Part shown: positions 14,554 through 35,068 of the stretch, in pieces
Layout: each line of letters starts with the position of its first letter
How positions within the stretch are numbered: position 1 is the stretch's first letter
Source: Flavobacteriales bacterium
GTDB taxonomy: Bacteria > Bacteroidota > Bacteroidia > Flavobacteriales_D > Sanyastnellaceae
Length of the DNA stretch: 41,851 nucleotides
Reading direction: 5' to 3'
Assembly (NCBI GenBank): GCA_022428285.1
Contig: JAKMCX010000123.1
Span: 1-41,851 of the forward strand
Position numbers and translations under genes: made by a program
Notes under the pieces: generated by a model
The model's input: the letters and a program-made list of their open reading frames with translations, nothing else
Told to the model about the DNA's origin: nothing
The model's database searches: none

Positions 14554-14599
14554 TTTGAACATCCGCGCGGAACAATGTGTCTCGGCGTGCCAAAGGCGC

Positions 14600-14607
14600 T
14601 AATTTTG
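14600..14607 (+). promoter_or_regulatory. -7 promoter box of the type B T9SS gene
   Basis: TAATTTTG matches TAnnTTTG exactly and ends 6 bases before the ATG at 14614. TGTG at 14576-14579, one base from TTTG, is 20 bases upstream. The box lies inside the longer open frame that begins at 14575, which argues that the true start is 14614 and that the mRNA is leaderless or nearly so. Confidence 0.6.
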
Positions 14608-14613
14608 AGGCAT

Positions 14614-16194
14614 ATGCAGGTTAAATCCTTCTTTTCCCACATGCTGCTCACTGCGGTTGTTGTGTTGATGGGCCAATCGGTGTCCCAAGCGCAAGACCCC
14701 TGTGTCTCCACAGGGACGGGTTTGCCGTATATCTCAACCAATCCGAACTATGTCTGCGAGGCATTGGATGCCTTTGTCTACATCAATGTGGCCCAGGCTT
14801 ATGCCGACCCCAATGATGCTGCAGCAGAAAACTTCAACTTCAGTTGGTATCCATTCGATGTGCTGGGCGGCACCAGCACCCAGAGCTTCGACATGTCGTT
14901 TGACAGCACCATCACCATTTGGTGTGTGGCCCTGGACCTGCAGAACAATTGCACCTGGACAGACACCATTGTGGTGCAGGTTCAGGAGGCGGTGAACATT
15001 GGCCTTCCGGCCGATACGCTGGTCTGTGATTTGAATGGATTTACGTTGCAGCCCTCTGCCGAGGCACAAGCGATGCCCGGGATTTCTTGGAATTGGGAGC
15101 CGTCACTCATGCTCTTGGGTGCCAACACGGCAACGCCTGAGCTGATCTTGGACGTGGACCAATGGTACTATGCAACCGCCAGCGCTGGGCCTTCGGGACA
15201 GTGCGCTTATGAAGACAGCATTTTTGTGACCGCGAATGTGGCGCCCATTGAGTTGGGGGTCGATCAAGAGCTGTGCGAAGGGGAAACGGCATCCTTGGAT
15301 TGTGGGTTGGATGCGGAGGTGGAAACCTTGTTGTGGAGCACAGGGGATACCGTGGCGTCCATAGTGGCCGATGTGACAGGGGTGTACTGGGTGACCGCCG
15401 TCAACCCCGAAGGTTGTGAGCGATCAGACACCGTCAGCATCGGCATTTTTGACAACCCCGTCATCACACTGGATGCCAGTGGCGCCGCGTGTGAAGGGCA
15501 GCCGGTTACGCTCACCGCTGCCGTTACCAGCGACACCACCATAGCCGGGGTGGGGTGGTCCAGCGGTGAGGCGGGCTATTCTATTGTGGTCACTGAGCCA
15601 GGCACTTATGAAGCCATTGCCGTGGACCTGACAGGGTGCACAGGAACGGCTTCTGTTTCTCCAGCGTTTTATCCATCGCCGGTTCCTGAATTGCAGAGTG
15701 ACACGGTCTTGTGTCTGGAGGAGGAAGGCCCGGTTTGGCTCGATGTGAGCCAGCCTGATGTGGCTTACACGTGGTCGGATGGGTCCACTGGCCCCGGAAT
15801 TTTGCTTTCCAGCGAGGGCCTTTACACGGTCACCCTGACCTTGCTTTCGAACGGATGTCAGGACTCTGCCAGCATCACGTTGACCGACTTCTGCCAGCAG
15901 GACAGCGTCTATTTCCCCTCGGCATTTACGCCGGATGACGACTCCGTGAATGACGATTTTGGCGGCTATTCAGAGGCGGTGGGGAGTTACCAATTGGTGG
16001 TGTTCAACCGATGGGGCATCGAGGTTTTCCGTTCAGATGACCTGGGCCGCCGTTGGGATGGCCGATTGGAAAGCGGAGAACTGGCGCCGGGCGGACTCTA
16101 TGGTTTCCGCGCCGTGTGGCGTCCCCTTCGGGATGATGGGGAAAGCATTGGCGGCTTCTTGGAAAAGGTGGGTGCCGTGACCCTTATTCGTTGA
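14614..16194 (+). CDS. T9SS type B (CHU_C / gliding-associated C-terminal domain) secreted protein
   Basis: A 526-residue secreted protein starting MQVKSFFSHMLLTAVVVLMG with cleavage expected after VSQA (…SQA|QDPC). The passenger holds at least three Ig/PKD-like modules with the pattern LC-EG…LWSTGDT…G-Y-V…GC, seen around residues 205-285, 290-355 and 360-425. The C-terminal 90 residues, starting VYFPSAFTPDDDSVND and containing LVVFNRWGIEVF and WDGR, are the gliding-motility-associated C-terminal domain that serves as a type B sorting signal for T9SS. The only lysines are K4 and K518, so 513 residues are lysine-free; there is also no arginine before R270. Function of the passenger is unknown; adhesin-like display is a reasonable inference. 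The 3' end overlaps ktrA on the other strand by 11 bases. Confidence 0.9.
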   Translation: MQVKSFFSHMLLTAVVVLMGQSVSQAQDPCVSTGTGLPYISTNPNYVCEALDAFVYINVAQAYADPNDAAAENFNFSWYPFDVLGGTSTQSFDMSFDSTITIWCVALDLQNNCTWTDTIVVQVQEAVNIGLPADTLVCDLNGFTLQPSAEAQAMPGISWNWEPSLMLLGANTATPELILDVDQWYYATASAGPSGQCAYEDSIFVTANVAPIELGVDQELCEGETASLDCGLDAEVETLLWSTGDTVASIVADVTGVYWVTAVNPEGCERSDTVSIGIFDNPVITLDASGAACEGQPVTLTAAVTSDTTIAGVGWSSGEAGYSIVVTEPGTYEAIAVDLTGCTGTASVSPAFYPSPVPELQSDTVLCLEEEGPVWLDVSQPDVAYTWSDGSTGPGILLSSEGLYTVTLTLLSNGCQDSASITLTDFCQQDSVYFPSAFTPDDDSVNDDFGGYSEAVGSYQLVVFNRWGIEVFRSDDLGRRWDGRLESGELAPGGLYGFRAVWRPLRDDGESIGGFLEKVGAVTLIR

Positions 16195-23408: not shown

Positions 23409-23442
23409 ACCCTTCCTGTGCTGTGTTCGTTGTTGCGGGGAC

Positions 23443-23450
23443 TATATTCG
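23443..23450 (+). promoter_or_regulatory. Putative -7 box of the first tandem T9SS gene
   Basis: TATATTCG, one base from TAnnTTTG, ends 27 bases before the ATG at 23478. It lies inside the longer open frame starting at 23418, supporting the downstream start. Confidence 0.4.
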
Positions 23451-23477
23451 CCCCACGAATCCAACATCAAACACGTA

Positions 23478-25400
23478 ATGAAGCACCTTTACACATTGGT
23501 CTTTGCGATGCTCACCGTGAGTTTCGCTTTTGCTCAGGCACCGGTTCGCGAATACGCCGGACGTGCCGTCACTGCCCGCGCTGCCCAAGGCACGCACGTT
23601 GATTACACCCGCGACATCATTTACACAAATGACTTCTCGGATTGCTCCAACATCACTTTCACCAACGCCAACGACGCCGGTTTCACAGACTACATCGATG
23701 GCATCAACTGGGAGTGCACGACATCTGCTCCAAGCGGACCATATGCCATTGCTGGCATCGCCTCTACCACTTCAGACAATGGTTTTGTGATGGTGGACTC
23801 CGATTTGTTCGGAGCAGAAGAAGCTTACGCTGCGAGCTGGGTTGAGAACTGCTGGTTCGACATTAACGATCCTGTGGACCTGACCGGTCACCCCTTTGTG
23901 ACCGTAGAGTTCGAAAACTACTACCGCTGCTGGGACAACACCACGGACATCGAGCGCTGCTACATGGAGATTTCTTTGGACGGCGTGAACTGGCCAAGCC
24001 CAGAGACCCTCGAAATTGAGGACGGTTATGTCGTCGTTGACGGTGACACACTCGCTGCCCGTTATGAAGTCTTCCCAACCTATGAGCGCGGTGATGAAAG
24101 CACCAACCCCAGTGTGGCCCGTTTTGACATCGGAGGCATTGCCGGTGATGAGGCTACGGTATACTTCCGCTGGCGCTGGGTTGGCCAATGGGGCTACGCC
24201 TGGATGGTGGACGACATGGTGGTGTTCGACACCCCTGCCAATGACGTTCGCATCAACGACTACGTCAGTTTTACCGACTACTTCACTACAGGTCTTTGGG
24301 AGGCGCAAACTTGGCCAGAGAGCCAACTGCCTGTCTTTGATCTCGCAGTGGGTGTGACCGGACTCGGAACTGCTGTTCAGCCCAACACCATGTTGACCGT
24401 AGCGGTCAATGGCAGTGAGGCTGACGGAGGAATGAGCACCGGATTGGACATTGCCTACGGCCAGAACGACACCTTGCGTGTTTTGGGCTGGGAAGCTGAT
24501 GGTTTGGGTGAGTACACCTTTGACTACACAGTGGCTTCGGACAGCACGGACGAATACCCTGCCGACAACGCGGCCCAGCAGGCCATTGAGGTTGTGGAAT
24601 TGCAGTACGGCCGTGACAACGGTGAGTTTGTGGGTCAAACACCTGCTGACGGTACTGTGGACTTCATCGCAGGTGTCCCATACGACGCTGTGAACGACAT
24701 GACCATCTACGCGATTGACGTTGCCATCATGGATGGATCTGACGTTGGTGCTGAAGTGGTCTGTCACCTCTTCGACTGGGTCGAGTGGAACAACGGAGGC
24801 GGTCAGTACGACGGCTTGTTGACCACAACGGAGGAAGTTCAGCTCGAGGCCAACTTCTTGAACAGTGGTGACGGCGAGGTGTCATGGTACACATTCGCAT
24901 TGGAGGAGCCCTATGAAGTGGCGCAAGGAGAGGCTGTGATGGCTTGCTTCGAGCACCTCGGCGGTGACAACGTTCAGATTGGAACCAGTGTCCCACAGCG
25001 CGACCAGACGGTCTTCATCTATGGTCCTTTCGGAGCCAGCAGCGCATACGACTGGTTCTTCACGACCAACTGCCCCATGGTTCGCTTGAACCTCGACCCG
25101 AACGCCGAGACCACCATGAACGTGGAGGACATCGCTGGAGAGGGCTTCACTTTGGGCCGTGCGTATCCCAACCCTGCGGCTGGAAACACCCGCATTGACT
25201 TCACCCTTGAAGCTGCAGCAGACGTGACCTTGGAGGTCACCAGCATGACGGGTGCCATCGTGCGTCGCATGGACCTCGGAGTTCAGCCCGCTGGCAACCA
25301 GCGTGCCGTTCTCGACCTCGAGGGCTTGACCGCAGGCATGTACACTTACACCATCTCTGTGGACGGCGCCCGCGCTACCCGCAAGTTGATCGTGAAGTGA
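23478..25400 (+). CDS. T9SS type A sorting-domain secreted protein (first of a tandem pair)
   Basis: A 640-residue secreted protein. The ATG at 23478 gives a clean signal peptide MKHLYTLVFAMLTVSFAFAQ, cleaved before or at the Gln; the upstream extension from 23418 lacks this form. The N-terminal passenger (about 50-270) looks like a beta-sandwich of the MAM/lectin-like type, with DNGFVMVDSDLFG, YMEISLDGVNW and a YAWMVDDMVV strand. A middle Ig-like segment and a second sandwich domain (about 390-550) follow. The last 75 residues, from GRAYPNPAAGNTRIDF to TRKLIVK, are a type A T9SS sorting domain. Lysine occurs only at K2, K636 and K640, so 633 consecutive residues have none. The substrate or ligand is unknown. 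A paralogue follows, separated by a strong terminator. Confidence 0.88.
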   Translation: MKHLYTLVFAMLTVSFAFAQAPVREYAGRAVTARAAQGTHVDYTRDIIYTNDFSDCSNITFTNANDAGFTDYIDGINWECTTSAPSGPYAIAGIASTTSDNGFVMVDSDLFGAEEAYAASWVENCWFDINDPVDLTGHPFVTVEFENYYRCWDNTTDIERCYMEISLDGVNWPSPETLEIEDGYVVVDGDTLAARYEVFPTYERGDESTNPSVARFDIGGIAGDEATVYFRWRWVGQWGYAWMVDDMVVFDTPANDVRINDYVSFTDYFTTGLWEAQTWPESQLPVFDLAVGVTGLGTAVQPNTMLTVAVNGSEADGGMSTGLDIAYGQNDTLRVLGWEADGLGEYTFDYTVASDSTDEYPADNAAQQAIEVVELQYGRDNGEFVGQTPADGTVDFIAGVPYDAVNDMTIYAIDVAIMDGSDVGAEVVCHLFDWVEWNNGGGQYDGLLTTTEEVQLEANFLNSGDGEVSWYTFALEEPYEVAQGEAVMACFEHLGGDNVQIGTSVPQRDQTVFIYGPFGASSAYDWFFTTNCPMVRLNLDPNAETTMNVEDIAGEGFTLGRAYPNPAAGNTRIDFTLEAAADVTLEVTSMTGAIVRRMDLGVQPAGNQRAVLDLEGLTAGMYTYTISVDGARATRKLIVK

Positions 25401-25517: not shown

Positions 25518-27575
25518 ATGAAGCACATTTTTACTCTGGCCGCCTGCGTGTTGGCCTTCCAAGTCTCGGCACAAATGATCGAGCAAATGCCCAAGAAGGC
25601 ATCGGATCAAGAACTTGAGACCAGCCGATTGTTGGGCCTTGAAGAGATCGCCCGTTCGGAGGCCCAAGGCATGCGTGGCGGCGACTCCACGGTGACTTTT
25701 TTCTACGAGGATTTTGCCAATGGCCTGGCTGGAAACAATGGCTTTGGCGCTTTGTCCACTGAGGACAGCAGCCCGGACAACACCATCTGGCAGTATGTGG
25801 ACGCTGCAGGTGACGGATACTTCCAAGATGCCACCGCATCTGGTGTTCAACCTCCAGCAGGTGAGTTCAGCACCAACATTGGTGCACTCAGCAGCATGAC
25901 GGCCGACAACGGCTGGATGATTTTTGACTGCGACTATTACAATACGCCCATCGCGTCGGGTGTTGAGGACACAGAGGGTTTCTTGAACCTCCCCAACATG
26001 GACATGACGGATTTGACCAGTGTGGTGATCACCTGGGACCAATACCTGCGTTACTGCTGCTATCCTTACCTGCCCATTTTTGTGGAGGTGAGCACCGATG
26101 GTGGAAGCATCTGGACGTCATTTGAAGCAGGAGGAACCTTTATTCCTTCGGCCAATTCAGCCAGTGCCAACCCACTGGTGACAAGCTTGGACATCAGCTG
26201 CGCTGCAGCTGGACAATCGTCTGTAGACATCCGCTTTGCTTACCTGCAGAGCCCCATTTCTGGAGGTGGCTATAGCCACTATTACTGGGGCATCGATGAC
26301 ATTGCCATCGAAGCCAACCCTGTGACCAACAGCTTGGAGTTGGTGCAATTGACCAACGGAGACGTATACAACCTCTTCGAGTACCGTGTGACGCCCATGG
26401 CGCAGGCCATTCCTGCTGCCGATGGCGGCGTGCTCGCAGGTGTACTTTACCGCAATGGCGGTTACCTGAACCAAGAGAACTGTGTGGTGACAGTGGAGGT
26501 CTTGGACGACCAGGGCACCGTATTGAGCACCACCAATACCGATCCGTTTACTGCGCCGTCTTTCGCCAACAACGACAACTGTCCTGCCAACCCGCAAGAC
26601 ACCTTGTACATCGCCACGGGATGGGAGCCCGATGGAGAAGGGCTCTACACGTTGCGTGCGACCATGTCCAGTGACAGTGTGGCTTCTGCGGTCGCAGTGG
26701 GCAGCGATTCCGGTGAGTTGACCTTGGACATGGAGTACACAGAGTGTGAATTTGGCCACGACAATGCCGGCACCTTGGATGTAGAACTCGGGCCACGTTT
26801 CGACGACGAGAACGATTTCTTCGAGCCTACCGGTTACGGCAACCGTTTCACCTTCAACAACGAGGGAACCACGGTGTACGGACTTGCAGTGGCCTTTGGT
26901 CCAAGCTTGGGCAATGGCATTGACTTTGAGATCCGTTGGATCGACCAAGACCCCGAAGTGGGACTTTCTGATTCGCCTTATGAATTTGCGGAATTCACTT
27001 CCGATGCGAACTGGGCAGGAACGCCAGCGGCACCCGTTTACTATCCCTTGGCATTCGAAGATGAAATGGAAGTGTCTGTAGAAGGATTGGCTTCACCCGG
27101 ATTTTATGCTGGAGCCGTGATCACGGAGTTTGACTTTGAAGACCTCGAGTTGACCGTATTGGGCAATGGCAACAGCGACACAGACAACAGCACCATCATC
27201 TACCAACAGGCTGGAAGTGGTGATTACGTGTGGTTTACATCGCAGACTGCGACTCCTGCGATCCGTTTGATCACCTGTCCGGTGGTCAGTGTGGACGTGT
27301 TGGGCGCTTACAACGGTGTGCATCTCGATGGCAACTTCCCCAACCCCACGGCTGGTGAAACCCGCTTCCGCTTCAACGCGGATTGGGGGGGTGATTTCAC
27401 GATTGAGCTGCGCGATTTGCAGGGACGTTTGGTCGATGTGGTCGACCTCGGTAACCGCACCCCAGGTGAGCACACTGTGGTGTACAATGCTTCTGCGCTG
27501 GCGGACGGCATGTACACGTATTCGCTCGTTACCAACGGCGTGCGCGTCACGAAAAAGATGCGCGTGCAGCATTGA
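25518..27575 (+). CDS. T9SS type A sorting-domain secreted protein (second of a tandem pair)
   Basis: A 685-residue secreted protein with signal peptide MKHIFTLAACVLAFQVSA and cleavage before QMIEQ. It shares layout with its upstream neighbour: a N-terminal beta-sandwich with TADNGWMIFDCDYYN (compare TSDNGFVMVDSDLFG), FVEVSTDGGSIW (compare YMEISLDGVNW) and a YYWGIDDIAIE strand, then an Ig-like segment, a second sandwich (about 400-590) and a type A T9SS sorting domain (about 612-685, GNFPNPTAGETRFRF to VTKKMRVQH). Lysine is absent from residue 28 to 678. Upstream, TTATTTTG at 25493-25500 is a near -7 box 17 bases before the ATG. A strong terminator follows the stop. The shared order of motifs implies a tandem duplication that has since diverged; the passenger function is unknown. 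Confidence 0.88.
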   Translation: MKHIFTLAACVLAFQVSAQMIEQMPKKASDQELETSRLLGLEEIARSEAQGMRGGDSTVTFFYEDFANGLAGNNGFGALSTEDSSPDNTIWQYVDAAGDGYFQDATASGVQPPAGEFSTNIGALSSMTADNGWMIFDCDYYNTPIASGVEDTEGFLNLPNMDMTDLTSVVITWDQYLRYCCYPYLPIFVEVSTDGGSIWTSFEAGGTFIPSANSASANPLVTSLDISCAAAGQSSVDIRFAYLQSPISGGGYSHYYWGIDDIAIEANPVTNSLELVQLTNGDVYNLFEYRVTPMAQAIPAADGGVLAGVLYRNGGYLNQENCVVTVEVLDDQGTVLSTTNTDPFTAPSFANNDNCPANPQDTLYIATGWEPDGEGLYTLRATMSSDSVASAVAVGSDSGELTLDMEYTECEFGHDNAGTLDVELGPRFDDENDFFEPTGYGNRFTFNNEGTTVYGLAVAFGPSLGNGIDFEIRWIDQDPEVGLSDSPYEFAEFTSDANWAGTPAAPVYYPLAFEDEMEVSVEGLASPGFYAGAVITEFDFEDLELTVLGNGNSDTDNSTIIYQQAGSGDYVWFTSQTATPAIRLITCPVVSVDVLGAYNGVHLDGNFPNPTAGETRFRFNADWGGDFTIELRDLQGRLVDVVDLGNRTPGEHTVVYNASALADGMYTYSLVTNGVRVTKKMRVQH

Positions 27576-31717: not shown

Positions 31718-34700
31718 ATGAGATTCAAACTGCAGTTCTTGGGCTTGGCCCTGTTGACGGTACTCTTTGCGGAGGCCCAACCGGTGTTGGTGGACGGAGA
31801 TGTTTGCTTGGACATAGAAGTGGTGGCCATCCACACAGAAGGCGCGCTCGAAGGCTTGACCACCTATCGCTTGTTTGCCACATTGCCCGGCCCTGAAGAC
31901 GTGATCACCACCGTGTTTGGAGATGCCGAGCACCCCACAAGTGTGCAAACAACCACGTCGTTTTACCAGGACGAGATTGGCGGACAATTCCCCTGTGCCA
32001 ACAACCCCATCCTCTTTGATGCTTTTCCCAGTTTGGCTTGGGACAGCTGGCTGACCTTGGGAATCTCCGGTCCGCCTGACCCTTCGCTGGGGGAGGACTG
32101 TCCCCAAGTGGTCATGAGCACGGGCTCTCCGTTTGTCACAGAGTTTGAAAGCGGCAACGGCTTTACGATTGACGATATGATTGGAAGCGCCTGGTTTGTG
32201 GTGCCTTCGAATACCAACGGGCTTCCAGATGCTGATGGTCGGGTTCTCCTGGCACAGTTGACGACCGACGGCGCACTTTCTGGGGTGTTTTACATTCAAG
32301 TTTTGCCTGGAGGAGTGGGCACCCTGGCCGAAGTTGTGGGGCTGCCTTTTTATGGAGAATGCGCAGAAATCTCACCGATACAATGCCCAGAGGAAATCGC
32401 CGTGGACGCTGCGGGATGCGATTGGCAATTCGAAGCGGGAAGTTTTCAGCCGTCGGATACCGCTGTGTGGTCGTTTGGCGACGACGTTCAGGTCGGAGGC
32501 CATTACACTGAATATTCTTTTGCCCAAGACGGTCAATACCCTGTATCCGTCACTTACAGCTCGGCCTATTGTCCCGAAGGGGTGACGTTGGTCACAGAAG
32601 TGTCGGTAGAGGGGTGCTCGGAAGTGGAGTGCACGCTGGAGTTGAACGTAGAAACCGCCCAAGAAGGGGAGGTGATCATGGTGATTCCGGTGGATTACCC
32701 GGAAGGCGTTGAATTGGTGTATTCGCTCAATGGCGAGGTTTTCCAAGAGGGAGGCTTGGCCATGACGCTGCCGGTGGGAACGGGCAATGCCCCTTGGCAA
32801 GTTTGTGTCCAATATGTGTCTGAAGATTGCCCAGATGGGGTGGTCGCATGCACGGGAAGTGAAGACTATGAGCCGGGCTGCCCAGACGAAATTTGGGTGG
32901 GTGGCTCAGGATGTGAATACATCTTAAGTATCTGCGATTACACGGAAGGAGAAAGCGTGGAATGGACGTTCAGCGATGGCACTTCGTCCGAGGGTCACTT
33001 CACGTGGCATACGTTCCCGGAGGACGGCATCTATGAAGCATGTGCGACTTATGTGAGCCCTACTTGTCCTGATACTGCGGTGCTGTGCACGGCGGTGGAA
33101 GTAGAGGGGTGTGGGCCTTGCCCGCTGGAGGTTGTGATCCTCAACAGTGCCACTGAAGATGAAGGTTGGATTCTTGAAGCGGTGGGGATGCCACCGGGCA
33201 CCGTTGTTTCATGGTTGGATGCTGAGGGCGCCTTGATTTCGGAGTCTGTTGAATTGTATTTCTCCGGCGAGGGGACGGTTTGCGCTGTTTACGAATCGGA
33301 GGACTGCCCTGAAGGGGTAGAAGCGTGCATTGAATTGGAACTTCCTGAGCCTGAATGCGGGGTGGAAGTGACCATCACACCCCTTGGCGAATGCGGGCAG
33401 TATTTGGCCCAATACGAGGGTGAACCAGGCCCGGGAGATGTGATGTGGTACCTCGACGGGGACCTTGTGCAGACAGGAGGAAGCGGGTTTGATTTTGCTT
33501 TGGACAGCGCCCAAGTGGCGGTCTTGTGCGCTGTGGCGACAGGAGCAGATTGTCCCGAAGGCGAGGAGGTGTGCACTGAAGTGCAGAACGAAGGTTGTGA
33601 ACCTTGTTTGAATGAGGATGAGGCCGAACTCATGGTGTTGCCCTTGGACGGGGAGGCGCCTTGTAGTGTGATGTTGCTGCTGGAGATGATGCAGCCCAAT
33701 GACTTCTACATTTTCTGGGATTTTGGAGATGGCATCACCACGACCGACGCCTATCTGTTTACCAACCATCAATACTCGGAATCTGGCACTTACGAGGTCT
33801 GTGCCACGGTGTTCAGTCCCGGATGTTTGGAAGGGGCCACGTGGTGCATCGATGTGGAGGTGGAAGGTTGCGACCAACCTTGTGAGCCCATTGCCGTGAC
33901 TGTTGCGCCCAACGAGGGGGCTTCCGGTTATTATTTCTGGTCTGGATACGCTGAGAATTGGGCGCAGGAGGGGGTGTTTTTCATTCCCGAGGGGAGCGCT
34001 GATCCGGTGGAATTGGGGTTGTGCCTCGCCGATGGGTGTTACGTGCTCGACTTCTGGGGATCAAGCGACCTTGACCTTGCGTCCGAACTGGACATCAGCG
34101 TGTCTGACTCGGAGGGCACAGTAGCTTGGGAGAATGAGCCGCTCATCGATGAGAATGGCTGGCAGGTCATCAGTTTTGGTGTGGGCGGTGGCTGTGATCC
34201 CGAACCCGAGGAATGTGAACTTGAAATCGAGGCGGCTCAGGAAGCAGATGGCAGCTGGACCTTGACGGCAGTCACTGAATCGCTGGAGGACGTTGGCTTT
34301 GTCTGGACCTTTTCGGATGGCTCCGTGCTGAATGGGGCAACGGTGAGTTACGCTTTTGTGTCCGGCACCCCCTTTGAGACCGCTTGTGTTGCGGCATTCT
34401 TTCCGGAGTGTGATGAGGTATTGGCGGCTTGCATCGACCTCGACAATGGGGCGGATGGGACATGCGAGGCTGTAGAAGTTGTGATTGAGGGCGAAACGTT
34501 TGTGGAATTGTTGGAGGATTTGGAGTGGGCGTGGAGCTTGTTCGGAGGTGGGTTTGAATGGTCCGACGCCATGTCGTTGGACCCGATGGATGGCGATGCC
34601 GGTGGCATTGTTCTGTGCCTGCCCCCTGGATGTTATGCCCTGTCTATGGAGATGTCTGGATTGCCAGGGTTTCAAGGCCTGCCTGGAATGACGATGTCCT

Positions 34701-35068
34701 TGAACATTGGTGCAGAAGAGCAGGTGTCCGTAGACCTTACTTCGATTGAAGGGGTGTTTGACCTGGAATTTGGGGTTTTGACCGACTGCGAATCCGCCAT
34801 TGAAGAGGCGTCGGTTTTGGCTCCAACGGGCCTTTCGGTATTCCCAAACCCCGCCGATGGCGCGGCCCATGTGCGGTTGGATGATGCCGCATTTGACGGC
34901 AAGGCATCGTGGGTTTTGGCCGATGGATTGGGTCGAATTGTGCTCCGAGGAACAGCCGCTGCGCCGCTCTGGGAATTGCCCTTGCATGGACTGCCGCCCG
35001 GCGGCTATTTGTTGCATGTGGTAAGTGGCGTTCACCGCCTCGACCAGAGGGTGATGGTCACCCGCTGA
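31718..35068 (+). CDS. Giant cysteine-rich, PKD-like repeat protein with T9SS type A sorting domain
   Basis: A 1,116-residue secreted protein with signal peptide MRFKLQFLGLALLTVLFAEA and cleavage before QPVLV. Residues 22 to about 215 form a unique N-terminal domain. From about 220 to 925 there are roughly eight modules of 75-105 residues, most with PKD-like strands (VWSFGDDV, EWTFSDGT, FWDFGDGITTTDAY, VWTFSDGS). Many carry the cysteine pattern VC-x3-Y-x-S-x2-CP-[ED]-G-V-x3-C and end in EGC. Module starts lie near 221, 299, 386, 463, 545, 625, 717, 825 and 915. The final 70 residues (LSVFPNPADGAAH onward) are a type A sorting domain. About 47 cysteines suggest a disulfide-stabilised surface protein. 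No lysine or arginine occurs from 176 to 1052. Passenger role unknown; a long adhesin or structural stalk is plausible. DUF2723 lies 85 bases downstream. Confidence 0.88.
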   Translation: MRFKLQFLGLALLTVLFAEAQPVLVDGDVCLDIEVVAIHTEGALEGLTTYRLFATLPGPEDVITTVFGDAEHPTSVQTTTSFYQDEIGGQFPCANNPILFDAFPSLAWDSWLTLGISGPPDPSLGEDCPQVVMSTGSPFVTEFESGNGFTIDDMIGSAWFVVPSNTNGLPDADGRVLLAQLTTDGALSGVFYIQVLPGGVGTLAEVVGLPFYGECAEISPIQCPEEIAVDAAGCDWQFEAGSFQPSDTAVWSFGDDVQVGGHYTEYSFAQDGQYPVSVTYSSAYCPEGVTLVTEVSVEGCSEVECTLELNVETAQEGEVIMVIPVDYPEGVELVYSLNGEVFQEGGLAMTLPVGTGNAPWQVCVQYVSEDCPDGVVACTGSEDYEPGCPDEIWVGGSGCEYILSICDYTEGESVEWTFSDGTSSEGHFTWHTFPEDGIYEACATYVSPTCPDTAVLCTAVEVEGCGPCPLEVVILNSATEDEGWILEAVGMPPGTVVSWLDAEGALISESVELYFSGEGTVCAVYESEDCPEGVEACIELELPEPECGVEVTITPLGECGQYLAQYEGEPGPGDVMWYLDGDLVQTGGSGFDFALDSAQVAVLCAVATGADCPEGEEVCTEVQNEGCEPCLNEDEAELMVLPLDGEAPCSVMLLLEMMQPNDFYIFWDFGDGITTTDAYLFTNHQYSESGTYEVCATVFSPGCLEGATWCIDVEVEGCDQPCEPIAVTVAPNEGASGYYFWSGYAENWAQEGVFFIPEGSADPVELGLCLADGCYVLDFWGSSDLDLASELDISVSDSEGTVAWENEPLIDENGWQVISFGVGGGCDPEPEECELEIEAAQEADGSWTLTAVTESLEDVGFVWTFSDGSVLNGATVSYAFVSGTPFETACVAAFFPECDEVLAACIDLDNGADGTCEAVEVVIEGETFVELLEDLEWAWSLFGGGFEWSDAMSLDPMDGDAGGIVLCLPPGCYALSMEMSGLPGFQGLPGMTMSLNIGAEEQVSVDLTSIEGVFDLEFGVLTDCESAIEEASVLAPTGLSVFPNPADGAAHVRLDDAAFDGKASWVLADGLGRIVLRGTAAAPLWELPLHGLPPGGYLLHVVSGVHRLDQRVMVTR

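Follow-up and report, generated by a model that had tools for sequence, protein, structure and literature searches.

The window analyzed here, the 41,851-nucleotide contig JAKMCX010000123.1 (assembly GCA_022428285.1) of a Flavobacteriales bacterium of the family Sanyastnellaceae, contains at positions 31718 to 35068 an open reading frame (ORF) for a protein of 1,116 residues, in which a stretch of 877 residues holds neither lysine (Lys, K) nor arginine (Arg, R). As judged from its orthologues, the mature part of this protein is held K/R-free by purifying selection. Exposed structural parts (FAS1, PKD, SprB, FN3, and DDGSC-type repeats) of many cargo proteins of the type IX secretion system (T9SS) in the same family and order are likewise K/R-free by purifying selection; enzymes and the ends that are cleaved off retain both residues. 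The best explanation, which we put forward tentatively, is that K/R cleavage sites were erased from exposed structural proteins.

A recount of the translation placed K/R at residues 2, 4, 51, 175, 1053, 1062, 1073, 1077, 1107, 1111, and 1116 and nowhere else, and the gap from R175 to R1053, first pointed out in the original prediction, is exact. The R-rich ends are the pieces that are predicted to be cut off; once the signal peptide and the sorting domain are gone, R51 and R175 would be the sole K/R left. Residues 176 to 1052 contain 58 Asp, 108 Glu, 5 His, and 44 Cys, with a net charge of about −166, and the reported abundance of acidic residues (D+E 166, 19%) is thus real. The chance of such a gap is about 10^-33 at the background K+R content of the genome (8.4%) and about 10^-8 at 2.2%, the mean of the long T9SS cargo that this genome encodes, and it is therefore well beyond chance by either measure, as had been claimed. 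In the conventional genes of the window, the longest K/R gaps span 20 to 74 residues, and in its other secreted-type genes they reach 265 (14575 to 16194), 128 (23418 to 25400), and 124 (25518 to 27575). The label "giant" has to be given up, since 1,116 residues are modest next to cargo of 3,000 to 4,400 residues in the same genus. Even in its own genome the gap is not the longest; other proteins have gaps of 958, 1009, and 1088 residues.

Orthologues keep the gap while their sequences diverge. In an alignment of 12 sequences (the window protein and 11 orthologues with 33 to 76% identity to it; 4.9 substitutions per site), there is one K/R among the 9,318 residues that correspond to residues 176 to 1030, whereas 187 (117 to 277) were expected from simulations under the LG model that used the composition of K/R-bearing cargo from the same genome. 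The comparison, which the original prediction had proposed, was therefore strongly positive. The lone K/R belongs to L039 and lies in the linker that leads to the sorting domain. R51 and R175 are found in every orthologue with the N-terminal module, and one of these, L042, has one added Lys (K46). In the window gene itself, 648 of the 7,695 single-base changes at residues 176 to 1030 would yield K or R (254 of the 648 are transitions), and the complete tails of the orthologues carry 6 to 10 K/R per about 86 residues. Since the tails of the same genes are rich in K/R, mutation supply is not the reason for the gap. The source DNA is a metagenome-assembled genome (MAG) that is 90% complete; its genus is known from MAGs of uncultured Flavobacteriales. 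Neither a frameshift nor an assembly error explains the gap: it recurs in independent assemblies, R2, R51, and R175 accompany it in all that have the N-terminal module, and gene order is kept. The reading frame is sound, because in relatives the protein lies between the same neighbors.

A one-off odd gene is excluded as well, and the K/R ban spans a class of cargo. The cargo lists rest on a single tail profile, with the T9SS-tagged proteins of the own genome fetched as stretches; the long-cargo samples of other genomes were chosen by tail score and length and are partial sets, some of them small. Low K/R is common within the genome, where 13 of 50 T9SS cargo proteins have less than 1% K+R in the mature part and four (L077, L079, L085, and L088) have zero K/R between signal and tail. 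The folds in K/R-poor cargo include FAS1, PKD, SprB repeats, and cupredoxin. The K/R-bearing cargo sampled consists mostly of enzymes (M43, M36-like, and M1 peptidases, GH5, and CotH), the enzymes standing at 3 to 7% K/R. Furthermore, L164, from another genus of the same family, has 1,366 K/R-free residues, and the longest run found, 2,090 residues without K/R (771 to 2860), lies in the T9SS-tagged, 3,337-residue L343 of genome G056, which belongs to another family of the order. The clearest control inside a single polypeptide is L178 (G038), in which a Lys-C domain of normal K/R content precedes SprB/PKD/Ig repeats that stay K/R-free for 843 residues. Protein size was rejected as the cause, since L074 (3757 residues, same tail type) has a normal K+R content of 5.2%.

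Three further observations concern the borders of this class. Multi-FAS1 proteins from another class of the phylum (L228 to L235) have lipoprotein-like N termini and about 0.6% K and 0.1% R in their domains, a strong but not absolute depletion, which suggests that the constraint reaches beyond T9SS cargo. L148 (G027) has a zinc-metalloprotease-like motif, HELGHGLGVV, within a nearly K/R-free stretch of 638 residues; judging by this motif, an enzyme-like domain may also tolerate the ban. Finally, L099, L101, and L102 (contigs C3, C156, and C60 of the own genome) are long and K/R-poor, have no Por_Secre_tail match, and share a dockerin-like end (GDGxI..DLLDFxxxxxxxC), which may serve as a further C-terminal signal for sorting or anchoring.

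What is avoided became clear from a matched comparison of FAS1 domains. The 97 domains of multi-FAS1 T9SS-type proteins (most with the sorting tail visible in the fetched piece) contain 1 K and no R in total (K 0.01%, R 0.00%, H 2.28%, D+E 15.2%), in contrast to 6.4% K, 0.4% R, 1.7% H, and 13.3% D+E in 38 single-domain FAS1 proteins. At the 15 columns that are K/R-rich in the single-domain set, including one that is 100% K/R there, T/A/S account for 56% and D/E for 12% in the exported set. Hence, with T/A/S in the lost K/R columns and His kept, we are dealing with a ban on K/R and not with a drive to acidity. A polyanionic, cation-binding surface, another reading of the original prediction, is not supported as the general cause, for the same reason and because some K/R-free stretches have D+E as low as 6.9% (L178). 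In the window protein itself, Glu exceeds Asp in the K/R-free stretch (108 versus 58), and no match to the RTX, cadherin, or thrombospondin-3 families of Ca2+-binding repeats was found in Pfam at an E value of 1 or better, although weak Ca2+ binding may still occur.

The same data bear on marine salt adaptation carried to an extreme, by which extracellular proteins would lose Lys and Arg and gain Asp and Glu as halophilic proteins do. Marine extracellular proteins indeed tend to lose Arg and Lys (PMC11928666), the direction of the loss is the same here, our records come from aquatic, partly marine MAGs, and D+E reaches 16.5% in K/R-poor cargo against 14.6% in the remaining cargo. However, the loss reported here is near-absolute, affects structural domains only, and is made up by neutral residues: zero K/R far exceeds the average shift reported, the secreted enzymes of the same genome face the same salt with 3 to 7% K/R, and FAS1 domains replaced K/R by T/A/S, not by acids, with D+E nearly unchanged. 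The halophile-type swap of K for D/E with a gain in acidity was not found for the K/R-free class (D/E at 12% of former K/R positions), even though the window protein itself is 19% acidic, and the K/R-free stretches of G038 are not acid-rich (D+E 6.9 to 10%). We therefore consider salt adaptation an unlikely cause.

In the explanation that we favor, Lys and Arg would have been removed as the P1 residues of dominant K- and R-specific extracellular endoproteases, which may include the bacterium's own secreted enzymes of the predicted Lys-C and RgpB-gingipain types. Long exposed strings of domains without K/R sites would escape clipping and would be spared while the cell digests prey, algal, or neighbor proteins, and an N-terminal pyroglutamate would likewise block aminopeptidases. 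In a wider form, which is possible but more doubtful, Bacteroidota that secrete Lys-/Arg-specific proteases have immunized themselves across the secretome, with sites left only in the two pieces removed during export, similar to the avoidance of restriction sites in phage DNA.

Candidate enzymes are present in the genome. L053 (contig C255, 33190 to 37957) is T9SS-tagged, has the Pfam domains Peptidase_C25, Propeptide_C25, and Peptidase_C25_C (Ig-like), and resembles RgpB (family C25; 5e-73, plus a match of the pro-domain); in the alignment with 1cvr, Asp163, the catalytic His and Cys, and Trp284 are kept. Three homologues of Lys-C (Achromobacter protease I, family S1) with sorting tails, L086, L096, and L308, keep the S1 triad and Asp225, as seen in alignments with 4nsv and, for L308, in the motifs GSSGS and PDYYGKM; L086 and L096 have Tyr in place of His210 of Lys-C. 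What the conserved residues do for specificity is established in both families. From the conserved residues, L053 and the Lys-C homologues together are predicted to cut after both banned residues, and no Kgp-like enzyme is required by the model. The protease explanation is supported by the loss of both K and R, matching the two predicted specificities, by the K/R boundary inside L178, by the mostly neutral replacements in FAS1, and by the selection seen in the orthologues. In most genomes of the order that were searched, there is a second C25 peptidase besides the PorU-like one.

Across genomes, we measured the fraction of long-cargo residues that lie in K/R-free runs of at least 150 residues, with the absence of a protease judged at the search thresholds used. 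This fraction was 0.36 (G000), 0.43 (G027), and 0.23 (G038) with both enzyme types; 0.30 (G020), 0.15 (G033), 0.40 (G029), 0.13 (G018), and 0.15 (G044) with Lys-C only; 0.43 with C25 only (G056); 0.00 without Lys-C and with one C25 (G052); and 0.08 without Lys-C and with two PorU-sized C25 (G058). The association of K/R-specific proteases with the ban is suggestive but not established. Several findings weigh against it and against the protease explanation as a whole. G052 and G058, the lowest two, fit the prediction, but they belong to the same family and amount to one independent contrast. G056 has its K/R-free run of 2,090 residues with no Lys-C match at 1e-6, and G020 and G029 have runs of 433 to 640 with no second C25. 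Strict dependence on the own Lys-C or the own C25 is thereby contradicted, and neither enzyme type is individually required. The ban extends inside compact domains, though its restriction to linkers would suffice; the K/R that remain in K/R-poor cargo show no preference for a position before Pro (2/72 and 1/24), as protected sites would; and other secreted protease types that are present (M43, M36, and M1) need no K/R. Hence, the resistance to trypsin- or gingipain-like proteases suggested in the original prediction is strengthened by the own RgpB-type C25 and the three Lys-C homologues of predicted specificity but not proven, given that their presence tracks the ban imperfectly across genomes.

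A rival that accounts for the data almost equally well, although we consider it somewhat unlikely, is avoidance of positive charge. Exposed filaments may shed cations so as not to stick to the anionic lipopolysaccharide (A-LPS) coat, anionic polysaccharides, and DNA, and so stay extended and mobile. Such selection would act against K/R without a need for more D/E and would tolerate His, which is neutral in seawater. Consistent with this, K and R are both lost, His is retained in FAS1 and D/E is not in demand, long surface proteins show the ban most strongly while enzymes do not show it, and the window protein has a strongly negative net charge in its K/R-free stretch. The N-terminal amine, the last fixed amine of the chain, is probably lost as pyroglutamate, which fits the protease explanation too. 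On the other hand, a few K/R per domain would be electrostatically minor at about −20 per FAS1 domain, yet their exclusion is near absolute, and the Debye length in seawater is below 1 nm. The His content of other K/R-free segments (0.21 to 0.36 of background) fits only partly.

A constraint from secretion, also raised in the original prediction, is largely rejected: enzymes with 3 to 7% K/R share the route, and one half of L178 is K/R-normal. Basic residues are kept in the tail because the conserved Lys of motif E of the C-terminal domain is needed for secretion (PMC10202324). The specific form in which the membrane potential hinders the passage of positive residues through Sec and makes it slow, with long, abundant cargo purged of them, can draw on the finding that Arg transport is rate-limiting in Sec and shapes the secreted proteins of Escherichia coli (PMC9110029). 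It predicts a shift from Arg to Lys, whereas relative to background the loss of Lys is no weaker than that of Arg (K 0.2 / R 0.4 in G000, K 0.0 / R 0.4 in G027), and neither the K+R content of L074, which has the same tail, nor the K-rich single-domain FAS1 proteins agree with it; we regard it as improbable. Saving of nitrogen and cost, by dropping N-rich Arg and Lys from protein that is lost to the cell, is the least probable of all. The stretch is low in Asn (1.8%) and His (0.6%), and marine extracellular proteins are N-poor on average (PMC11928666), but Asn is 1.2 to 2.0 times background in the K/R-free segments of three genomes, and costly Trp and sulfur-bearing Cys make up 2.4% and 5.0% of the stretch. 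Among the readings of the original prediction, protease resistance is thus the best supported.

The protein itself is best explained as a disulfide-rich chain of Ig/PKD-like domains that is predicted to be exported by the T9SS and to stay on the cell surface or be shed. Its parts are listed in the table.

Parts of the 1,116-residue protein, their positions in the window, and the evidence for each
Feature	Position	Strand	Evidence
Whole ORF, 1116 aa, T9SS-type surface protein with tandem beta-sandwich modules	31718..35068	+	Orthologues, some partial, in 13 further genomes of the genus; conserved flanks
Signal peptide, residues 1-20, with R2 and K4	31718..31777	+	Sequence inspection; cleavage inferred; Q-rule
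N-terminal module, residues 21-221, with R51 and R175, sole K/R of the mature protein	31778..32380	+	R51/R175 in all orthologues carrying the module
K/R-free stretch, residues 176-1052, 877 aa	32243..34873	+	Residue count; kept in orthologues
Tandem all-beta Ig/PKD-like modules, residues 222-1030	32381..34807	+	Pfam, AlphaFold2, Foldseek
T9SS C-terminal sorting domain, residues 1041-1116, 7 K/R; removal at the surface predicted	34838..35065	+	Por_Secre_tail; profile match

By inspection, the two basic residues of the signal peptide are followed by a hydrophobic core. The mature N terminus is predicted to be Gln21, as pyroglutamate according to the Q-rule of Bacteroidetes (PMC10653852), and Ala20-Gln21 is almost invariant in the alignment of orthologues. 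In the genome profile search, the match to Por_Secre_tail (21.2 bits, E 8.6e-4) is below the 27-bit cut-off; the domain has a PNP motif and basic residues at the terminus, and a profile of the orthologues matches the tails of T9SS proteins, including the tail of a solved Lipase at 2.4e-6. Pfam recognized PKD_4 (69 bits, 3.8e-19) and PKD (53 bits, 3.4e-14), each in four stretches. The AlphaFold2 model of the module region is all-beta, with a predicted local distance difference test (pLDDT) score of mostly 60 to 89; with the mean at 65, we draw only the general fold class from it. For the N-terminal module, AlphaFold2 gave no usable model (pLDDT about 30), and no Pfam family was reported. This module (residues about 27 to 230) is widespread across genus and family, where many proteins, the largest of about 4,400 residues, contain it, sometimes in several copies.

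Among known proteins, those most like it are gliding and surface adhesins of Bacteroidota that are T9SS type A cargo and carry PKD/Ig/SprB-type repeats; it shares with them the signal peptide, the tandem beta-sandwich modules, and the sorting domain with basic residues, but its mature part is essentially K/R-free, and a role in adhesion would be putative. The best Foldseek matches of the model are to fragments of GhpA (9flp, E 9e-20), a giant multi-domain surface protein that Aureispira uses as a grappling hook, and Ig/FN3 ectodomains rank next. The GhpA pieces that were aligned and compared (residues 201-426, 632-701, and 782-905) have about 5 K/R in about 420 residues and none in 201-426. 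GhpA, however, has 5,898 residues, comes from another class, has another architecture, and is not closely matched in sequence by the window protein, and its function is not transferable.

Phrase searches of the open literature turned up no previous account of T9SS cargo lacking K/R, subscription papers being outside our coverage. A near-absolute loss of two common amino acids over 900 to 2,000 residues, in unrelated folds and in diverging orthologues, is among the strongest composition constraints in folded proteins. The prediction that follows from the ban is sharp and can be tested at the bench with commercial proteases. Since the K/R-free part yields no internal tryptic peptides, standard proteomics will have undercounted such surface or matrix proteins of abundant marine bacteria, and nature offers ready trypsin-resistant scaffolds in K/R-free FAS1, PKD, and FN3-like modules.

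The order of the genes that flank the ORF is conserved in relatives; we take its neighbors to encode an EamA-like transporter, a HAAO-like (3-hydroxyanthranilate dioxygenase-like) protein, and a DUF2723-like protein. Elsewhere in the window, the gene at 14575 to 16194 encodes a secreted protein of 539 residues with an end of the FTPDDDSVNDDF... type, which has no type A tail match and resembles a gliding (type B) C terminus. The genes at 23418 to 25400 and 25518 to 27575 encode adjacent T9SS-tagged proteins that are alike in size and start (MKHLYTLV and MKHIFTLA) and are K-poor, with 2.8 to 3.6% Arg.

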